DNA of 39,195 nucleotides from Bacteroidota bacterium (lineage in GTDB: Bacteria; Bacteroidota; Bacteroidia; Flavobacteriales_F; PHOS-HE28): positions 1-39,195 of the forward strand of contig JAFDZF010000175.1 of the NCBI GenBank assembly GCA_018267055.1, given 5' to 3'. Below the pieces are notes generated by a model. The model was not told the origin of the DNA. It ran no database searches and worked only from the letters and a program-made list of their open reading frames with translations. The position numbers and the translations under genes were made by a program. Below, piece after piece: positions 25,213 to 34,416 of this stretch (position 1 is its first letter; each line of letters starts with the position of its first letter).

Positions 25213-25271
25213 CTCGGGCGTCCCGAGGGAGGAGGGCGGTCGGTCCGGTGCTAGCGGATCGGAACGGGGGC

Positions 25272-25279
25272 TATCTTGG
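25272..25279 (+). promoter_or_regulatory. Putative -7 box TATCTTGG for the NHL protein gene
   Basis: TATCTTGG matches TAnnTTnG and ends five bases before the ATG at 25285, so the transcript might have almost no leader. Confidence 0.4.
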
Positions 25280-25284
25280 TCGGT

Positions 25285-28200
25285 ATGAAGAAGTACTTGC
25301 TCGTTCTGTCGCTTGCGCTGGTCGCGCACGGGCTTTTTTCCCAGGCCTATCCCACGGTCGAGCTCTATGCGGGAGCGCCGCAGGCCGGATTGGTCGATGG
25401 CCCCGTCGCCAGCAGCCGCTTCCGGATGCCGTACGGCCTTTCGCACGACCCGCTCACCGATGCCATCTACGTGGCGGATGCGTTCAACCATTGCATCCGG
25501 AAGATCCAGAACGGCATGGTCACCACAGTGGCCGGAAGCGGGCAGGCCGGGGATGCCGATGGGCAAGGTGCAGCGGCGCGCTTCAATACGCCGACCGGTG
25601 TTTGCTTCAAGAACGGCTTCCTCTATATCTGCGACGACCTGAACTCGAAGATCAAGCGGATGGATGGTGCCGGCAACGTGGTCACGATCGCCGGTACCGG
25701 GGTGGAGGGCTTTCTGGACGGCCCGGCGACCCAGGCCCGGTTCCGGCAGCCGAAACGGGTGGTGGTCGATGATGCGGGCGTCGTCTACGTCACCGATTAC
25801 GAGAACCACCGCATCCGGAAGATCGTGAACGATGTCGTTTCCACCTATGCAGGCACCGGTGCACAAGGCGACGGCCTCGGCCCGGCCCTGTCGGCGGCGC
25901 TGCACCGCCCGGCCGACATGAGCCTGGCGCCCAATGGCGACCTCTATTTCACCGACCTGATGAACAACAAGGTGAAAGTGGTGCGCACCAACGGCATGGT
26001 CGAGCTCATCGCCGGCTCTGGCGCTCTGGGTGGTGCCGATGGGTCGGCTGCGCAGGCCTCGTTCAGCCATCCGCCCGGCCTGGAGTGGTACGGGACCGAT
26101 ACCCTCCTGGTCGTGGACGCCATACAGCCGCGGCTGCGCATGCTCACCACCGCCGGCCAGGTGACCACCATCGCCGGCAACGGCCAGACCGGTTATGTGA
26201 ACGGCCCAAGCCTTTCGAGCGAGTTCGCCGTGGCCCAGGATGCCTGCATGGACAATGCCGGCAATATCTACCTGACGGATCGCAACAACAACAACATCCG
26301 CATCCTGCGCCGCGCGGTCGTGGTGCAGCCGTGCACCGCCATGGCCGCTCCCGTGCAGGCGGGCAGTCCCGTGGTCTGTTTGTCCAACGGCCAGGCGACG
26401 ATCGCCGGGACGTCGGGCGCGAGCACGGTCCCCGAAGGCTATGGCGTGGCATACCTGCTTGCGCAGGGGACGGGCCACACGGTCGTTCAGGTGGCATCGG
26501 CCCCGGTCTTCACCGTGACGACCGTCGGCACATGGTCCATCCACACGTTGGTGTACGATCCGGCCACGTTCGACCCTTCATCGGTGGAGCTGGGGAGCAC
26601 AAGCATCGCGGACCTGCTGCCCATGTTCGTGGAGGGCGGAGGGGACATCTGCGCCAGCCTCGACGCGGGCGGTGCGGCGATCAGCACCCTGGAGTGCCCC
26701 ACGGGATGCGACCAGGACCAATGGAGCCTCAGCATGGGCGGGGCAGGGCAACAGGTGGCCCACAGTGTCCTCGCCCATTCCTCGGGCGACCTGTTCGTCG
26801 GCGGGTATACGAGCGTCGGGCAGAACATCCTGCTCGTCCGCATGACCGTTCAAGGGGATATCGTCTGGTCGCGGTCGTACGACATGGGGGCGAACGACAA
26901 CGGCACCAGCGTGAACGTGGAGGAGGCGTCGGACGGTGGTGTGTTCATTTCCGGTACCCGCGGCTCGGCCGGCGCGTTCCTGATGAAGACGACCGCCGAC
27001 GGAGCGGTGCAATGGAACAGGGTGCTCTTCCCGCAATGGACGGCCAACCTCCGGGTCATCCGTCCTTCGGCCGATGGTTCCGTCCTGGTGGCCGGTACGG
27101 TGAACGCCGGGGTGTTCGGCAGCTCCGAGGGGTTCATCGGGCGCCTGGACCAGGCCACGGGGGACCTGCAGTGGAGCCGGATGCTCGGCGGTGCCGCCAA
27201 TGACCATTTCACCGACCTCAGCGAGCTGGCGGACGGGACGATCGTGCTCAGCGGAGAGGTGCAATCCTTCGGCGGCATCCGCAATGGATGGTACGTCCAC
27301 TGTGCTGCCGACGGCACCTTGCTCGCATCGCAGCAATACGGCGGCAGCGGCAACAGTGCCTTCATCCGGCACGTGGCGCATCCGGACGGCACGTTCACCC
27401 GGGTCGGCCTGACGGACGGGTCCGGACAGGGCGGCTATGACATCTGGGTGGCCCGGACGAGCGCTTCCGGCCAGTTGCTTTGGTCCTATACGTACGGGAC
27501 CTCGCACAACGAGCGCGGCGCAAGCGTCACGGCGATGCCCGATGGAGGCGTGGTGATCGCCGCGGTCGAACTGGATACGCCGGCCATGTACTGGTTGCGG
27601 CTGGATGCGGCCGGCGCCGTGCAGTGGGCCTTCTCTTCGGATGAGATGGGAAGTGCCTACCCGGCCTTGTACGCTTCGATGATCACGCGGACCGCTGATG
27701 GCTCGTTCGTGGTCATCGGGAGCTCCCCCTCCGCGAGCGGGGACCTGCGGGTGATCAAGACCGGCGGCTGCGGGGCGTTCGCGTGCGGCGCGAACGACGT
27801 GCCGTTGGTCCGGGAAGCGTTCAACGCCGCGGTTTCCGTGATCCCCAACGTCCAGGTGGCTTCGAGCACGAGCTCGACGGCCGTGAACGTGTCCATGCAG
27901 GACGGTACTGCCGCGATGATCGCCTCCAGCACGTTGGAGCATTGCACCAGCGGCGAGTGCAACGCGAAAGCGTCCGGCATGGCCGCCGACATCGGGCCGA
28001 TCTGCCTGGTGAACGGCGAAGCCACCCTGACCGCCTCGCCTTCCGGGACGAACGTGGTGCCGCCCGGCTATCAGGTGGCGTATCTCCTGTCGCGCACCAA
28101 TGCGCTCATCATCGAGCAGGTGGGCCCGGTGCCGGAGTTCACCGTGAACAGCACGGACATCTGGCGCATCCACGGCCTGGTGTACGATCCGGCCACGCTG

Positions 28201-29280
28201 GACCTGTCCACCATCACGCCCGGCACGTATGCCTACGATCTGCAGGCCCTGCTGGTGCAGGGTGGCGGGACGATCTGCGCCAGCCTGGACATCAGTGGGG
28301 CACCGATCAAGACCGGGGAATGCCCGCAGGCCTGCATGGCCAAGGCGGCCGGCATGACGGCGGACATCGGCCCGGTGTGCCTGGAGAACGGGGCGGCCAC
28401 CCTGGTCGCTTCGCCTGCCGGTGCCGACCTGGTGCCGCCGGGCTATGCCGTGGCCTATGTGCTCACCCGCACCAATGCGCTCATCATCGAACAGGTGGGC
28501 ACCACGCCTGCGTTCACGGTCACGAGCGAGGACATCTGGCGCATCCATTCCCTGGTGTACGACCCGTCCACGCTGGACCTGTCGACGCTGGTGCCGGGGA
28601 CCTATGCCTACGACCTGCAGCACCTGCTGGTGCAGGGCGGCGGGGCGATCTGCGCGAGCCTGGACATCAGCGGCGCGCCGATCAAGACGGGCTTCTGTGA
28701 AGGAACGCCGTGCTCCGGCGGCGGGGATACCTCGATCACGGTGTGCTACACCGATCCGCCGTTCTTCCTGTTCGATCTCATCCCCGGTGATCCATGCCCC
28801 CTGGGTGTCTGGTCAGCGGGCGGCGAGGCGCAGGTCCCGGCGAACGGCTGGTTCGATCCCGCGGCACAGACCAGTGCGGCCTTCCACTATACGGCGTTCC
28901 TGCCGGACGGGTCGGAGCATCAGGTGATCGTCAACGTCACGTTGATCGAATGCCCCGGCGGCATCGAGGAGGACCAGCCGGAAAAAGGCCCGATGCAGGG
29001 CATCGCCACCGGCGTGGCGGCCGCTGGTCCGCTGGATGGGCCGGCCGTGTGGCCGAACCCGGCGAGCGGGACCGTCCATGTGCGCCTGCCCTACGGGCTC
29101 ACCACCGGCACGCGCATCGAGCTGATCGATGCGGCCGGTCGCGCGGTCGCGGTGCCGTTCGTCCGCACGGCGCAGGGGCTGTCGTTCGATACCGAGGCCC
29201 TGGCGGCCGGTGCATGGACGCTGCGGGTGATCGACCAGGCCCAGGTGTTCTCCGCGCGCTTCGTGCGCGTGGGCGAGTGA
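25285..29280 (+). CDS. Large secreted NHL beta-propeller protein with T9SS sorting tail
   Basis: A 1331-residue secreted protein. Residues 1-19 are a signal peptide ending near FSQA. Residues about 25-345 contain six NHL repeats (for example IAGTGVEGFLDGPATQARFRQP, then VYVTDYENHRIRKI), enough for a six-bladed propeller. A repeat of about 115-125 residues occurs at 350-470, 892-1016 and 1017-1140, each with a CxAKA-like start, VPPGYxVAYLL, IWRIHxLVYDP and GGGxICASLD. Between the first and second copies, 475-840 forms a second propeller-like region of WS-type blades (GGVFISGTRG, VVIAAVELD). A short beta domain and a type A T9SS tail (VWPNPASGTVHVRLP) finish the protein. It is probably surface-attached; function unknown. 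I chose the ATG at 25285, directly before the signal peptide. Confidence 0.87.
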   Translation: MKKYLLVLSLALVAHGLFSQAYPTVELYAGAPQAGLVDGPVASSRFRMPYGLSHDPLTDAIYVADAFNHCIRKIQNGMVTTVAGSGQAGDADGQGAAARFNTPTGVCFKNGFLYICDDLNSKIKRMDGAGNVVTIAGTGVEGFLDGPATQARFRQPKRVVVDDAGVVYVTDYENHRIRKIVNDVVSTYAGTGAQGDGLGPALSAALHRPADMSLAPNGDLYFTDLMNNKVKVVRTNGMVELIAGSGALGGADGSAAQASFSHPPGLEWYGTDTLLVVDAIQPRLRMLTTAGQVTTIAGNGQTGYVNGPSLSSEFAVAQDACMDNAGNIYLTDRNNNNIRILRRAVVVQPCTAMAAPVQAGSPVVCLSNGQATIAGTSGASTVPEGYGVAYLLAQGTGHTVVQVASAPVFTVTTVGTWSIHTLVYDPATFDPSSVELGSTSIADLLPMFVEGGGDICASLDAGGAAISTLECPTGCDQDQWSLSMGGAGQQVAHSVLAHSSGDLFVGGYTSVGQNILLVRMTVQGDIVWSRSYDMGANDNGTSVNVEEASDGGVFISGTRGSAGAFLMKTTADGAVQWNRVLFPQWTANLRVIRPSADGSVLVAGTVNAGVFGSSEGFIGRLDQATGDLQWSRMLGGAANDHFTDLSELADGTIVLSGEVQSFGGIRNGWYVHCAADGTLLASQQYGGSGNSAFIRHVAHPDGTFTRVGLTDGSGQGGYDIWVARTSASGQLLWSYTYGTSHNERGASVTAMPDGGVVIAAVELDTPAMYWLRLDAAGAVQWAFSSDEMGSAYPALYASMITRTADGSFVVIGSSPSASGDLRVIKTGGCGAFACGANDVPLVREAFNAAVSVIPNVQVASSTSSTAVNVSMQDGTAAMIASSTLEHCTSGECNAKASGMAADIGPICLVNGEATLTASPSGTNVVPPGYQVAYLLSRTNALIIEQVGPVPEFTVNSTDIWRIHGLVYDPATLDLSTITPGTYAYDLQALLVQGGGTICASLDISGAPIKTGECPQACMAKAAGMTADIGPVCLENGAATLVASPAGADLVPPGYAVAYVLTRTNALIIEQVGTTPAFTVTSEDIWRIHSLVYDPSTLDLSTLVPGTYAYDLQHLLVQGGGAICASLDISGAPIKTGFCEGTPCSGGGDTSITVCYTDPPFFLFDLIPGDPCPLGVWSAGGEAQVPANGWFDPAAQTSAAFHYTAFLPDGSEHQVIVNVTLIECPGGIEEDQPEKGPMQGIATGVAAAGPLDGPAVWPNPASGTVHVRLPYGLTTGTRIELIDAAGRAVAVPFVRTAQGLSFDTEALAAGAWTLRVIDQAQVFSARFVRVGE
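27958..28707 (+). repeat. Tandem 375-bp direct repeat within the NHL protein gene
   Basis: Two adjacent 375-bp units (27958-28332 and 28333-28707) encode near-identical 125-residue modules. Runs such as ACCAATGCGCTCATCATCGA and GGCGCATCCA recur with the same phase. A third, more diverged copy lies at 26332-26700. The high identity of the adjacent pair suggests recent duplication or homogenisation. Confidence 0.75.
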
Positions 29281-29347: not shown

Positions 29348-32300
29348 CTAGAAGCTGCGTCCGATGCCCACCACGTAGCGGAAGGCGAAATGGTCGCTCT
29401 CGGTGGCGGGCAGCTGGCCCAATAGCAGGGGCATGTCGAAGCGGATCGTCAGCGGCTTGATGTCGCTGAGCGGGCCGAACTTCTTGATGGTGAGCGCCGC
29501 GCCTGCGCCGGCATCGGTCCGGGGCGGGGCCAGGCGCAGCTGCGTGGTGCCGGCCTCCGTCACGGCGCGGTAGCCCATGCTGCCCACGTCGCCGAAGAGG
29601 TACACGTCCAGGTGCAGCACGTCGCGGATGGCGCGCGGGCGGAAGCGCACCAGGCCGTCCAGGTCCAGCTCCGCGTTCAGCGCGCCGCCGGTATTGCCCA
29701 TGTAGGAGAGGATGAGGTCGCCGTTCACGTTGCGCTCGGGGGCGAGGTAGCCCGCATAGCCGCGCAGCCCCAGGCCGCCGCCGTACTGGAAGTGGTTCAC
29801 GTCCGCGCCGTAGCCCATCCAGTCGAAGGGCACGAAGCCGATGCTGCGCACGTACTTGTTCTCCATCATCTCCTCGGGCGAGGCACCGGCGAGGTAGAGC
29901 GCGCTCTCGCGCGGGGTGGTGCCGGTGCCGTATTGGAGCAGCACGCGGGTGCGCAGCCCCAGGCGGCCCAGGCGGTTGTCGTTGATCGCCGTCAGGGTGG
30001 CCTGGGCATAAGGGAGGGCCGCGCCGATGCCGCTGTTGCGCACGTTCAGCCGGAGGTCGCCTTCGCCTTTCCGGTATTCATAGTGGTGGCGCACGCCGGC
30101 GTCCCAGGTGCTGTTCAGCCGGTCCAGTTCCCATTGGCCGGGGTAGATCAGGTACGTCAGGTCGGTGCTGTCGCGGCGCAGGAGGAACGCGAGGTCGGTG
30201 TAGAACCGGGTGCGCTCGTTGCGCAGCTGCCAGTCGAAGCCGGCGCCGTAGCGCTCCAGCCCGTCGAGCAGGCGGGCGGTCACGTGCACCGAGGAGCCGC
30301 GCAGGAGCTTCTCCGTGGCGTTCTCATAGCGGAAATTGAAGCTGATGGGGTCGTAGCGCGTGTCCACGCCTTCCTTCGGCAAATTCTGGCCCAGGCCGGT
30401 GTTCAGCCAGCCGGTGAACCAGATCTTGTGTTTGGCGCGCAGGTAGTCGCCGTGGAAGTGCAGGCCCACCTTCACTCCATCGTAACCGTTGTACCAGACG
30501 TCGGGACGGACGAAGCCTTCGTAGATGCGGCGGTCCGGACGGTTGGCGATGTGGCTGTCGAACTCCGTCTCCACGGGCAGGCGGAGGCTGTTGTTCAGCT
30601 GGTAGGCATCGGCCAGGCGGTAGGTGGTGTCGATCCGCACGTCGGCGATGCCGCTGGGGATGTCCACGTCCGCATAGTAATCGCGCTGCAGCTCGTCGAA
30701 GCCGATCCAGCGCGGCAGCACCCGCGCATCCGTCCGCTTCACGAACCAGGTGTTCGGGATGTGGTAGTCATAGCGCTTCCCGTCGCGCGCCAGCACGGTG
30801 AAGTCGATGGGCATCTGCAGGTCGCCGATGCGGCGGAAGTGGATCCGTTGGCCCCGGTCCGCGTTGCGGTGCGACACGCCTTTCACGGCATAATCGATGC
30901 GCTGGTCGGTGTCGATCCACGCATCGAAGAACCAGTTCAGGTCCACGTGCGTGAACGAGATGATGCTCTGCCGGAAGTCCTCCACGTAGGGGTGGCATAT
31001 CTTCCACTGGTCGAAGTAGTGCTGCATCGCGGCGCTGAAGAGCGTATCGCCCAGCACGTACTGCAGGTTGAAGAGCATCGTCGCGGTCTTGAAGTACACG
31101 TGGCGGTAGCCGCCCGGCAGGCGCGAGAACTCGTCGCTGTGGGTGTCGATCGGCGGCAGGCGGTCGCGCACGGCATCGCGTGCATAGCTGGAATACACCT
31201 GCGACTCACGGGCCAGGAGCGGGTGGGTGTAGCGGCGCTCGTAGGCGGTGCGCGGGGTGTCGGTCACCAGGGTGTCGCCGCTGATGCGCTCCAGGCCCCA
31301 GGCGGTGAGGAACTGGGTGAAGCCCTCGTCCAGCATGGCGCGGTAGGTCTCGTTGTTGCCCACCATGCCGAAGAACCAGTTGTGGCCGATCTCGTGCACG
31401 AAGAGGCTGCGGTAGCCCGGGTCCTCATCGCCGTCGAGCGTCAGCATCGGGTACTCCATGCCGTCGCGCGCATCGGCCACCACCATCTTGGGGTAGGCGT
31501 ACATGCCGATCAGCTCGCTGTGCGCCCGCACGGCCTTCGCGCAGTAGTCGGCCGCGTTCTGCCACTTCGCGGCGTGCGGCTCCTCGGCCAGCGCGATGCA
31601 CTTCACGCCGTTCCATTCCGTTTCGCCGATGCGGTAGGTGGGGTCGGCCGTGAATGCGAAGTCGTGCACGTTCTCCGCGTGGTAGCGCCAGGTCTTGCGC
31701 ACGCCCGGCTGGTAGGGCGTCACCACGGAGGGACGCTCGTTCCACGGCTTGTCCTTGAAGTTGGCGATGTCCAGCTTCGCGCGAAGCTCCGGCGGCAGCA
31801 CCTCCTGGGGGTTCTGCAGCCAGCCCGTGGCCTCCACCACCATGTCATTGGGCATGTCCAGCTCCACGTCGTAGCAGCCGAAGTCGCCGTAGAACTCATG
31901 GCCCAGGTGCTGCTGGGTGTCCCAGCCGAACTTCTTGTCGTACACGCTGATCCGCGGGTACCAGTGGGTACCGTCGTAGTGCTTGAAGCCCCAGGCGCTG
32001 AACAGCTTCATCCGGCGCCCTTCACCGCCCCAGTGGGTGCGGAAATGATACTCGAAGGTCATGCTGGTGCCGGGCGGCAGCGGCCTGGCCAGCGTCACCT
32101 TCACGATGGTGTTGTCCTGCTCGCGCGCCAGTTCCTGCCCCTCGCTCGTCATGGTGATGATCTCGGTGCCGCGCTTGGCCGCGGGGTCGAGCTTCTTGCG
32201 GCCGGGACGCTTCCCGTTCAGCATGTCGTTGTAGCTGCCGGCGTTGTAGGCCTCCTGGTAGAGGTGGAAGAACACGTGCCGCAGCGTGTCGGGCGAATTG

Positions 32301-32533
32301 TTCCAGTAGACCAGGGTCGCGGTGGCGTCGGCCACGTCGCTCACCTCGTCCAGGCGCGCGTGGAGCGTATAGTGCACGTCCTGCTGCCAGTAGCCGTCAT
32401 AAGGCTGGCGGTTCTTCCAGTAGTAGGGGTTGTCCGCGTTGCGGAAGGTATTGGGCGGGTGCAGCGGGTCGTAGCGCTGGGCGATGGCGCCCGGCAGCAG
32501 GGCGAGGCCGAGCAGGACGAAGGGGATCCTCAT
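29348..32533 (-). CDS. M1-family zinc metallopeptidase with apparent C-terminal Omp85-like barrel
   Basis: A 1061-residue exported protein. Residues 1-18 are a signal peptide ending in AIAQ. An M1 aminopeptidase region follows to about 570. It has a GAMEN-like G358-M359-E360-Y361, the zinc motif HEIGH at 380-384 and the distal Glu E403, which gives the family spacing HExxH-x18-E. Residues 575-670 are beta-rich. From about 675 to the end the sequence alternates in short amphipathic strands and carries Omp85 hallmarks: LRGY with R924, 137 residues from the end; FGDVGSMG; DAGAGAALTI; a FGP-LTIRFDMPLLL strand; and a final strand ending in Phe (FRYVVGIGRSF). I infer a peptidase tethered to, or secreted by, its own outer-membrane barrel. 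The start is the ATG at 32533. Confidence 0.85.
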   Translation of the reverse strand: MRIPFVLLGLALLPGAIAQRYDPLHPPNTFRNADNPYYWKNRQPYDGYWQQDVHYTLHARLDEVSDVADATATLVYWNNSPDTLRHVFFHLYQEAYNAGSYNDMLNGKRPGRKKLDPAAKRGTEIITMTSEGQELAREQDNTIVKVTLARPLPPGTSMTFEYHFRTHWGGEGRRMKLFSAWGFKHYDGTHWYPRISVYDKKFGWDTQQHLGHEFYGDFGCYDVELDMPNDMVVEATGWLQNPQEVLPPELRAKLDIANFKDKPWNERPSVVTPYQPGVRKTWRYHAENVHDFAFTADPTYRIGETEWNGVKCIALAEEPHAAKWQNAADYCAKAVRAHSELIGMYAYPKMVVADARDGMEYPMLTLDGDEDPGYRSLFVHEIGHNWFFGMVGNNETYRAMLDEGFTQFLTAWGLERISGDTLVTDTPRTAYERRYTHPLLARESQVYSSYARDAVRDRLPPIDTHSDEFSRLPGGYRHVYFKTATMLFNLQYVLGDTLFSAAMQHYFDQWKICHPYVEDFRQSIISFTHVDLNWFFDAWIDTDQRIDYAVKGVSHRNADRGQRIHFRRIGDLQMPIDFTVLARDGKRYDYHIPNTWFVKRTDARVLPRWIGFDELQRDYYADVDIPSGIADVRIDTTYRLADAYQLNNSLRLPVETEFDSHIANRPDRRIYEGFVRPDVWYNGYDGVKVGLHFHGDYLRAKHKIWFTGWLNTGLGQNLPKEGVDTRYDPISFNFRYENATEKLLRGSSVHVTARLLDGLERYGAGFDWQLRNERTRFYTDLAFLLRRDSTDLTYLIYPGQWELDRLNSTWDAGVRHHYEYRKGEGDLRLNVRNSGIGAALPYAQATLTAINDNRLGRLGLRTRVLLQYGTGTTPRESALYLAGASPEEMMENKYVRSIGFVPFDWMGYGADVNHFQYGGGLGLRGYAGYLAPERNVNGDLILSYMGNTGGALNAELDLDGLVRFRPRAIRDVLHLDVYLFGDVGSMGYRAVTEAGTTQLRLAPPRTDAGAGAALTIKKFGPLSDIKPLTIRFDMPLLLGQLPATESDHFAFRYVVGIGRSF

Positions 32534-32576
32534 GCGGTGGGCCGGGCCTCCCGGGGCATCGGGCGGCGGGCAGGGG

Positions 32577-32584
32577 TGAAAGTA
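32577..32584 (-). promoter_or_regulatory. Possible -7 box TACTTTCA for the M1 gene
   Basis: The minus strand reads TACTTTCA, a two-mismatch-level match to the -7 consensus, 43 nt upstream of the M1 ATG in the 75-bp gap behind the YihY gene. Confidence 0.3.
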
Positions 32585-32608
32585 CCGGATCGCGGCCCTC
32601 CGCGCACT

Positions 32609-33568
32609 TCAGGCCAGGTCGGCGTCGGCGGGGCGCAGCCGGGCGTGGCGCTCGCTGCGGGCCTTGGCGATGCTGGTGTTCAGCTCGAAGCCGACCAGCA
32701 GCACGATCATGTTGAAGTAGAGCCAGAGCTGCACGGCCAGGATGGCGCCGATGGACCCGTACAGGGCGTTGTAGTCGGTGATGCGCCCGAAGAAGAAGGC
32801 CAGGGCCTGGGAGAGCCCGAGCACCAGCAGCAGCGCCAGGATGGCCCCGGGGGTGATGAGCCGGAAGCGCCGCTCGCCGGGTGCGCCGGCGTAGTAGAGC
32901 AGCGAGATGGCGCAGAGCATGAGCAGGATGGTGACGCTCCACTTCACCGCGAAGAAGACGACGCGCTCCAGCAGGCTCATGGCGTAGCCGCTGTCCTTGA
33001 TGAGGGAGAGCGCCCAGGAGCCGAGGGTGAGCGCGCCCATGGCCACCACGCAGAGCAGGGTGAGCACGAACATCAGGGCCAGGCTGATCAGCCGCTGGCG
33101 GAGGGGGCTGTGCCAGCGGGTCACGTGGTAGCTGGCGCTGAAGCCGTGCAGGATGGCGTCCACGCTGTTGCTCGCGAAATAGAGGCCCAGCACGAAGCTC
33201 ACGCTGAGCAGGGTGCTGTGCTTGCGCACCAGCAGGTCGTGCAGCAGCCCTTCGATGAAGCGGTACACCTCCACGGGCAGCATCTCCTGGAAGGTGCCCA
33301 GCAGCTTCAGCTGGAAATCGGGGATGGGGATGAAGGGGATCAGCGTGAGCAGCACGATGATCGCCGGGAAGAAGGCCAGGAAGAGGCGGAAGGCGATGGC
33401 CGAGGCGCGGGTGATCAGCTGGCCCTGGTGCAGGGCCAGGAAGAAGAAGCGCGAGATGTGGTAGAGGCTGAAGCCGTCGAAGCCGGGCAGCACCACCTGC
33501 TGCGTCCAGCGGATCAGGCGGCGGTTGGCGCTGGAATAGAGCAGGTGACGCTTCAGCCGCTTCACCAT
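32609..33568 (-). CDS. YihY/BrkB-family inner-membrane protein
   Basis: A 319-residue protein of the YihY/virulence-factor BrkB family, with six main membrane helices. The family signature ITRASAIAFRLFLAFFPAIIVLLTLIPFIP (first part near residues 52-71) is clear, as are YFASNSVDAILHGFSASYHV and the late ALYGSIGAILAVQLWLYFNM segment. Family members are not ribonucleases despite old annotations, and their transport role is unresolved. I start at the ATG at 33568, which is 2 bp after the nadC stop; the longer frame lies within nadC. The C-terminal tail is short and basic. It probably shares a transcript with DUF4783 and nadC. Confidence 0.88.
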   Translation of the reverse strand: MVKRLKRHLLYSSANRRLIRWTQQVVLPGFDGFSLYHISRFFFLALHQGQLITRASAIAFRLFLAFFPAIIVLLTLIPFIPIPDFQLKLLGTFQEMLPVEVYRFIEGLLHDLLVRKHSTLLSVSFVLGLYFASNSVDAILHGFSASYHVTRWHSPLRQRLISLALMFVLTLLCVVAMGALTLGSWALSLIKDSGYAMSLLERVVFFAVKWSVTILLMLCAISLLYYAGAPGERRFRLITPGAILALLLVLGLSQALAFFFGRITDYNALYGSIGAILAVQLWLYFNMIVLLVGFELNTSIAKARSERHARLRPADADLA

Positions 33569-33570
33569 GG

Positions 33571-34416
33571 TCAGATCATGGCCTTCAGGCTCAGGTCGAG
33601 GCTGCCTGCGGAGTGGGTGAGGGCGCCCACGGAGATGAAGTCCACGCCGCGCTCGGCGAAGGCCCGTGCGGTGGCCAGGGTGATGCCGCCGCTGGCCTCG
33701 GTCTCGTAACGGCGGCCGATCATGCGCACCGCCTGCTCCAGCTCGTCCAGGCCGAAGTTGTCCAGCATGATGCGGTCCACGCCGCCGGTGGCCAGCACCA
33801 GGCCCACCTCCGTGAGGTCGCGCGTCTCCACCTCGATGGGCAGGTGCAGCTCGTTCTCGCGCAGGTAGGTGCGGGCGCGCTGGATGGCCGCGGGGATGCC
33901 GCCGGCCATGTCGGCATGGTTGTCCTTGATCATCACCATGTCGTACAGCCCGAAGCGGTGGTTGTGGCCGCCGCCGATGCGCACGGCCCACTTCTCGATG
34001 GCGCGCAGGGTGGGGGTGGTCTTGCGGGTGTCCAGCACGCGGCAGCCGGTGCCCTCGATGGCGTTCACGAAGGCGCGGGTGAGGGTGGCGGTGCCGCTCA
34101 TGCGCTGCATGAAGTTCAGCATCAGCCGCTCCACGATGAGGATGCTGCGGGCGGGTCCGGTGAGGGTGAAGGCCACCTCACCGGCGGTCACCTGCGCGCC
34201 GTCGTGGATCAGCACGCGCAGGTTCAGCTTGGGGTCGTAGTGGCGGCAGATGGCCTGGGCCAGCTCCACGCCGGCGATCACCCCGTCCTGCTTCACCAGC
34301 AGCCGCGCGGAACCTTTCGCATCGGCGGGGATGGTCGAGAGGGACGTGTGGTCACCGGTACCGATATCCTCCAGGAGGGCGCGGTGGATGAGCTCTTCCG
34401 TGTGCGGTGGCAGCAC
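33571..34416 (-). CDS. nadC: Nicotinate-nucleotide diphosphorylase (carboxylating) NadC
   Basis: A 281-residue quinolinate phosphoribosyltransferase, which makes nicotinate mononucleotide, CO2 and diphosphate from quinolinate and PRPP in de novo NAD synthesis. The N-terminus LIHRALLEDIGTGDHTSLST is diagnostic. The core includes the PRPP and quinolinate residues in RMSGTATLTRAFV, TRKTTPTLRAIEKWAVRIGGGHNHRFGLYD, MIKDNH, then VETRDL, IMLDNF and EASGGITLATA, which close the barrel. The start is GTG at 34416, 2 bp after the DUF4783 stop; it places the first motif at the normal distance from the N-terminus. Length matches the family. Confidence 0.96.
   Translation of the reverse strand: MLPPHTEELIHRALLEDIGTGDHTSLSTIPADAKGSARLLVKQDGVIAGVELAQAICRHYDPKLNLRVLIHDGAQVTAGEVAFTLTGPARSILIVERLMLNFMQRMSGTATLTRAFVNAIEGTGCRVLDTRKTTPTLRAIEKWAVRIGGGHNHRFGLYDMVMIKDNHADMAGGIPAAIQRARTYLRENELHLPIEVETRDLTEVGLVLATGGVDRIMLDNFGLDELEQAVRMIGRRYETEASGGITLATARAFAERGVDFISVGALTHSAGSLDLSLKAMI

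Follow-up and report, generated by a model that had tools for sequence, protein, structure and literature searches.

Does one gene of this Bacteroidota genome encode both a zinc peptidase of family M1 and an outer-membrane barrel of the Omp85 type and, if so, on which side of the membrane would the enzyme work? Omp85 proteins are usually taken as assembly or translocation machines with POTRA domains. In the window, that is, the whole analysed stretch of 39,195 nucleotides, the first-pass annotation had read such a fusion from a single open frame, and this frame was found exactly there. The gene and the features of its M1 half are as follows.

29348-32533, minus strand: M1 metallopeptidase-Omp85 barrel fusion gene, 1061 residues plus stop, ATG start, with orthologues.
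32480-32533, minus strand: predicted Sec signal peptide, residues 1-18, MRIPFVLLGLALLPGAIA followed by Q, without a lipobox (sequence read by eye; helix 3-16 in the model).
30899-32401, minus strand: M1 N-terminal saddle and thermolysin-like catalytic domain, residues 45-545 (PF01433; fold matches).
31448-31465, minus strand: DGMEYP, residues 357-362, counterpart of the M1 exopeptidase motif GXMEN (G358, M359, E360 and Y361 invariant, 61/61).
31325-31396, minus strand: zinc site HEIGH-18-E, residues 380-403 (H380, E381, H384 and E403 invariant, 61/61).
31094-31108, minus strand: residues 476-480 with Y476 and Y480, candidates for the M1 transition-state Tyr (both invariant, 61/61).
30554-30898, minus strand: M1-type beta-sandwich (domain III), residues 546-660, no POTRA (all-beta secondary structure in the model).

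Pfam recognised Peptidase_M1 (PF01433, residues 376-539; E 3.3e-14, 53.5 bits versus a curated cut-off of 27.7) as the sole domain of the full protein. The full-length model (pLDDT 87.6, pTM 0.84) has an M1 fold according to Foldseek (E 3e-20) and to VIA-align, with Z of about 26-28 against tricorn F3, IRAP, ERAP1 and LTA4 hydrolase. These ordinary M1 enzymes, like the two-domain M1 peptidase of D. radiodurans, share the catalytic fold and the zinc site; the zinc residues claimed from the sequence, H380-E381, H384 and E403, were found, spaced as HEXXH-18-E. However, ordinary M1 peptidases end in helical domains or just stop, whereas in the fusion a membrane barrel comes after the beta-sandwich. 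In the model, the all-beta region 546-660 directly follows the catalytic domain and no long helix is found beyond residue 540. Hence, the fusion lacks the helical domain IV of larger M1 enzymes, and the barrel stands where that domain would be. Because the beta-sandwich comes after the catalytic domain, the M1 unit extends to about residue 660, a refinement of the first 570 residues named at first. The barrel proper begins at about residues 668-671 and thus makes up the last 391 residues or so. M1 enzymes mostly release single N-terminal residues. In the fusion, the exopeptidase motif GXMEN reads DGMEY, with an invariant Glu (E360) and replaced flanking G and N; we therefore call the protein an M1 metallopeptidase and not a proven aminopeptidase, an activity that is not certain.

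The M1-Omp85 fusion is no artefact; it is real and old. Orthologues were found in 44 of 45 genomes of the same order, all of one genus, some of them clipped by contig ends; the single genome of the order without one (1/45) is 69%-complete and contains paralogues only. As for the frequency of the fusion in Bacteroidota, which the first-pass annotation had left for a check, at least 80 other loci of the genome collection carry it, including records of Flavobacteriales, Saprospirales, Bacteroidales and Taibaiella (with an orthologue in Taibaiella chishuiensis, L102), and the match reaches the same C-terminal Phe where the contig permits, with few exceptions. In an alignment of 61 members, mean column identity is 51%. 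G358, M359, E360, Y361, H380, E381, H384, E403, Y476, Y480, R924 and D982 are invariant (61/61), E955 and F1061 are each conserved in 60/61, and all nine catalytic-site residues checked show no variation. HEXXH-18-E is also retained in every broader M1-barrel fusion examined. Third codon positions hold most of the differences in both halves of the gene, as would be expected from purifying selection on both. On the plus strand, a 1365-aa open frame (29612-33709) lies antisense to the fusion gene, and orthologous loci show similar antisense frames; we judged it to be an antisense shadow and not a gene, since coding DNA rich in GC most likely gives rise to such frames.

The fold search with the full-length model was flooded by M1 enzymes and uninformative on the barrel, which was therefore folded alone (residues 640-1061, 57 sequences). 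The resulting model has a pLDDT of 90.0 and 16 long strands. The features of the C-terminal half are as follows.

29351-30532, minus strand: 16-strand Omp85-type barrel, residues 668-1061 (models; PDB matches; hhalign).
29690-29920, minus strand: L6-like loop between strands 11 and 12, residues 872-948, highly conserved (alignment and models).
29756-29767, minus strand: LRGY, the Omp85 L6 signature, residues 923-926 (R924 in 91/91 fused and stand-alone barrels).
29669-29671, minus strand: E955 (strand 12), acidic residue predicted to pair with R924 (60/61 orthologues; 88/91 fused and stand-alone barrels).
29588-29590, minus strand: D982 (strand 13, in FGDVG), acidic residue predicted to pair with R924 (61/61; 91/91).
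29351-29383, minus strand: FRYVVGIGRSF, residues 1051-1061, last strand, BAM beta-signal-like with terminal Phe (F1061 60/61).

In full-length numbering, strands 1 to 8 span residues 671-682, 686-697, 701-711, 730-739, 747-756, 759-769, 775-785 and 807-820, and strands 9 to 16 residues 823-834, 842-855, 858-871, 949-957, 973-991, 1005-1016, 1028-1037 and 1054-1057. The sole very long loop, 872-948, connects strands 11 and 12 and contains GGGLGLRGY. The motifs read from the sequence at the outset are all present: LRGY (923-926), 137 residues from the C-terminus, whose R924 is invariant in the 61 orthologues, FGDVG (980-984), DAGAG (1007-1011), the FGP...LTIRFDMP strand and the terminal Phe. Two conserved acidic residues, E955 and D982, lie on strands 12 and 13 of the models, respectively; presumably, they correspond to those that pair with the loop-6 arginine in BamA. 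The loop consensus reads ES.LYLAGANPEEMMENKY.RS.GF, then GGGLNLRGY. The segment preceding RGY (29783-29920, residues 872-917) is very conserved and modelled with high predicted confidence. Both features are unusual for a surface loop and suggest a plug held within the barrel lumen.

When the barrel alone was compared with the PDB, the best 50 Foldseek matches were all BamA or TamA (E 4.9e-9 to 5.9e-7), and the best 50 of VIA-align 2 were all Omp85 proteins (BamA, TamA, Sam50; Z 18.1-20.5 over about 280-325 residues), the best being D. radiodurans BamA (Z 20.5, 297 residues, 4.2 A). Foldseek TM-scores lie mostly at 0.4-0.5 by query length and the rmsd is large; the barrel is therefore a distant relative. 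Overall, structure prediction bears out what had been proposed, a 16-strand barrel with the L6 motif in place, LRGY being part of the long loop that joins strands 11 and 12. The best 50 matches are Omp85 proteins by two methods, and the soluble beta-sandwich named as the contrary outcome for the C-terminal region is absent from the model.

The link to Omp85 is harder to see by sequence profiles. PF01103, a detection tool and not a defining trait of Omp85, gave zero HMMER matches in any member tested; a search of the C-terminal region of 61 members against Pfam returned nothing convincing, and a sequence-only search of the PDB nothing useful. With hhalign, a narrow orthologue alignment matched Omp85 moderately (81%). 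An alignment of 91 sequences, made of the orthologues, relatives from other families and stand-alone barrels, reached 94.4% (E 9.3e-8) against ordinary Omp85 barrels of Bacteroidota, and LRGY, NAE and FGDVG aligned on or beside their equivalents there; R924, F980, D982, G1009, P677 and P1035 are fully conserved in it. Five fusions of other families with an exact V/LRGY reached 97.1% (E 6.3e-11). In a control with shuffled columns, the maximum of 30 shuffles was 0.4%; this control carries the argument, as the TonB-receptor control alignment is weak, with two sequences only, one of them doubtful. The profile search proposed for the C-terminus thus had a divided outcome: negative for Pfam-type profiles in every member tried, positive for profile-profile comparison (94-97%). 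It could be argued from the missing Pfam match in 61 members and from the merely moderate 81% of the first, narrower alignment that the C-terminus is another barrel family or a soluble domain whose likeness to Omp85 arose by chance. This is very improbable, given that the best 50 fold matches are all Omp85 in both searches, that the RGY position, E955 and D982 agree, and that profile-profile comparison gives 94-97% versus at most 0.4% for shuffles. The fusion also has no Pfam match to POTRA, and its region 546-660 is all-beta. With no POTRA and a Pfam Omp85 model that misses the family, the fusion was probably overlooked for these reasons.

The barrel profile matches 62 of 296 genomes sampled across the phylum. 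Many of these matches are stand-alone barrels of about 400-465 aa, mostly of family f28; others are M1-barrel fusions of 990-1150 aa, some of which lack RGY yet keep the barrel (hhalign 99.7-99.8%). A full-length orthologue is missing from many Bacteroidota in the genome sample, and at the loci examined no adjacent M1 gene was found beside stand-alone barrels, as a split would leave. In the barrel tree, the stand-alone barrels form one clade (SH-aLRT 100), which needs one change between fused and alone. In the M1 tree, barrel-less M1 proteins of about 630 aa are nested among fused ones; gain or loss of the barrel must therefore have happened repeatedly. The same lineages retain M1 paralogues that have no barrel.

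Several observations concern these relatives. The stand-alone barrels at loci L148-L176 (except L151) and L177-L196 have about 400-465 aa and no Pfam recognition. Several of them adjoin a NUDIX-like gene, an acetate-kinase-like gene and a lipoprotein of about 590 aa; the lipoprotein of L177 carries a caspase-like domain (PF00656, E 9e-7). L192 (6769-9466, minus strand) holds a tandem pair of stand-alone barrels of the same family. The host itself has a second long M1 protein (L007, 127-3387, minus strand; genome G000, contig C16; 1087-aa frame), which most genomes of the genus share. At its C-terminus, similarity to the fusion barrel is confined to the last strands (95.5%), and both the RGY arginine and the strand-13 aspartate have been lost.

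The occurrence of stand-alone barrels and barrel-less M1 paralogues in the same lineages means that the two parts can work apart. It is thus possible that the barrel is a passive anchor or a narrow peptide pore and that the enzyme mainly finishes the digestion of imported peptides. However, a passive anchor has no obvious need for invariant R924 and D982 and for a strongly conserved loop of 77 residues, and Omp85 barrels are largely closed.

Among enzyme domains found on Omp85 barrels is PF00149, which we take to be the calcineurin-like phosphoesterase family. For Heinz and Lithgow 2014, the defining feature of the Omp85 superfamily is the 16-strand membrane barrel of Omp85 type, and N-terminal patatin, WD40 and PF00149 'Metallo' domains occur among ten Omp85/TpsB subfamilies; in the section that describes them, M1 is not among them (PMC4104836). 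Their 'Metallo' subfamily also joins a metal-dependent enzyme domain to an Omp85 barrel without POTRA, and its authors weighed periplasmic quality control against release at the surface; there, however, the domain is PF00149 and conserved at genus level only, whereas the M1 fusion has PF01433 and is phylum-wide. The 'noNterm' subfamily of the same authors has no enzyme domain, and may be compared with the related stand-alone barrels of about 400-465 aa in the phylum (PMC4104836). The literature searched, with most subscription journals outside it, gave no description of M1 and Omp85 in one protein.

Two further Omp85 fusions were seen in the same genus. In one frame of genome G042 (L145, 1492-3777, minus strand), an amidohydrolase and an Omp85 barrel are combined (PF07969, E 7e-30, and PF01103, E 1.6e-12), a fusion of which we know no description. 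Another (L142, 1492-3888, minus strand) joins a PD40/WD40-like propeller to Omp85, apparently of the known WD40-Omp85 class.

The nearest analogue that has been studied is PlpD of P. aeruginosa, whose patatin domain precedes an Omp85 barrel and was located experimentally in the periplasm (PMC11116518). Like the fusion, PlpD and patatin-like Omp85 proteins begin with a hydrolase and end in a 16-strand Omp85 barrel within one chain; PlpD has a patatin lipase and POTRA, whereas the fusion has an M1 zinc peptidase without POTRA. Since the M1 unit is N-terminal to strand 1, at the POTRA position, and given the PlpD experiment, the periplasm is the most likely location. The alternative offered at first, an autotransporter-like peptidase whose barrel delivers the M1 domain to the cell surface in the manner of type V secretion, where external peptides would be digested, formally resembles the first claim made for PlpD (type Vd, as recounted in PMC4104836) and would suit polymer-feeding organisms. 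It is nevertheless unlikely: the patatin domain of PlpD was later found only in the periplasm, and its secretion was judged unfavourable for a folded domain (PMC11116518). In addition, the M1 unit is a compact alpha/beta fold of about 600 residues and not a beta-helix, 16-strand Omp85 barrels have both ends in the periplasm, and no type IX sorting tail is seen, the protein terminating on a barrel strand. Of the two readings, the barrel-anchored peptidase is thus favoured, and we consider it probable that the product is a zinc peptidase that its Omp85-type barrel keeps attached to the outer membrane, on the periplasmic side; location, orientation, activity and substrate are inferred.

In this arrangement, the signal peptide would direct Sec export, and BAM would insert the barrel via its C-terminal Phe strand. 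The M1 unit would stay in the periplasm just below the barrel, at the place of POTRA domains in other Omp85 proteins. The barrel would stand where ordinary M1 enzymes have their helical lid (domain IV), and the active-site cleft may therefore face the membrane or the barrel mouth. Most likely, the enzyme would cleave peptides or unfolded polypeptide where the outer membrane borders the periplasm, either newly entered peptides or non-native outer-membrane proteins. The neighbours of the gene are housekeeping (nadC, YihY/BrkB, RlmH, DUF4783) and give no hint of a partner or substrate. The convergent neighbour (25255-29277, plus strand) is an NHL-repeat protein whose match to a type IX secretion tail stays below threshold (PF18962, 24.7 bits versus a cut-off of 27).

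Quality control of outer-membrane proteins and peptide digestion are narrower sub-cases of an anchored periplasmic peptidase and do not exclude it. For the former, in which the barrel would contact BAM or its clients and M1 would trim or degrade stalled proteins, the precedent is M48 BepA of E. coli, likewise a periplasmic zinc peptidase acting at outer-membrane assembly sites, where it works on LptD at BAM (PMC8423444). The fused barrel, with its RGY signature retained, also belongs to the type found in assembly factors. BepA, however, is of another peptidase family and a separate periplasmic protein, whereas the M1 unit is fused to its barrel; the removal of mostly single N-terminal residues is unlike BepA. 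The absence of POTRA and of a genomic link to bam genes, together with the lack of a full-length orthologue in many sampled Bacteroidota, further weighs against this role, which is possible but less likely than not. More speculatively, the barrel may replace both the POTRA domains and the M1 lid and itself gate or feed the active site of the anchored peptidase. If true, this would define a phylum-wide, unrecognised Omp85 class, in which an outer-membrane protease carries its own conduit or a barrel that binds clients.

PlpD showed that the Omp85 scaffold can bear a periplasmic enzyme, and the M1 family adds a further enzyme class. Its orthologues across Bacteroidota go undetected by the standard Omp85 profile, which suggests that annotation understates how common Omp85 barrels with enzyme domains are. 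The M1-Omp85 fusion offers a clean system for the role of an Omp85 barrel that does not build other barrels.
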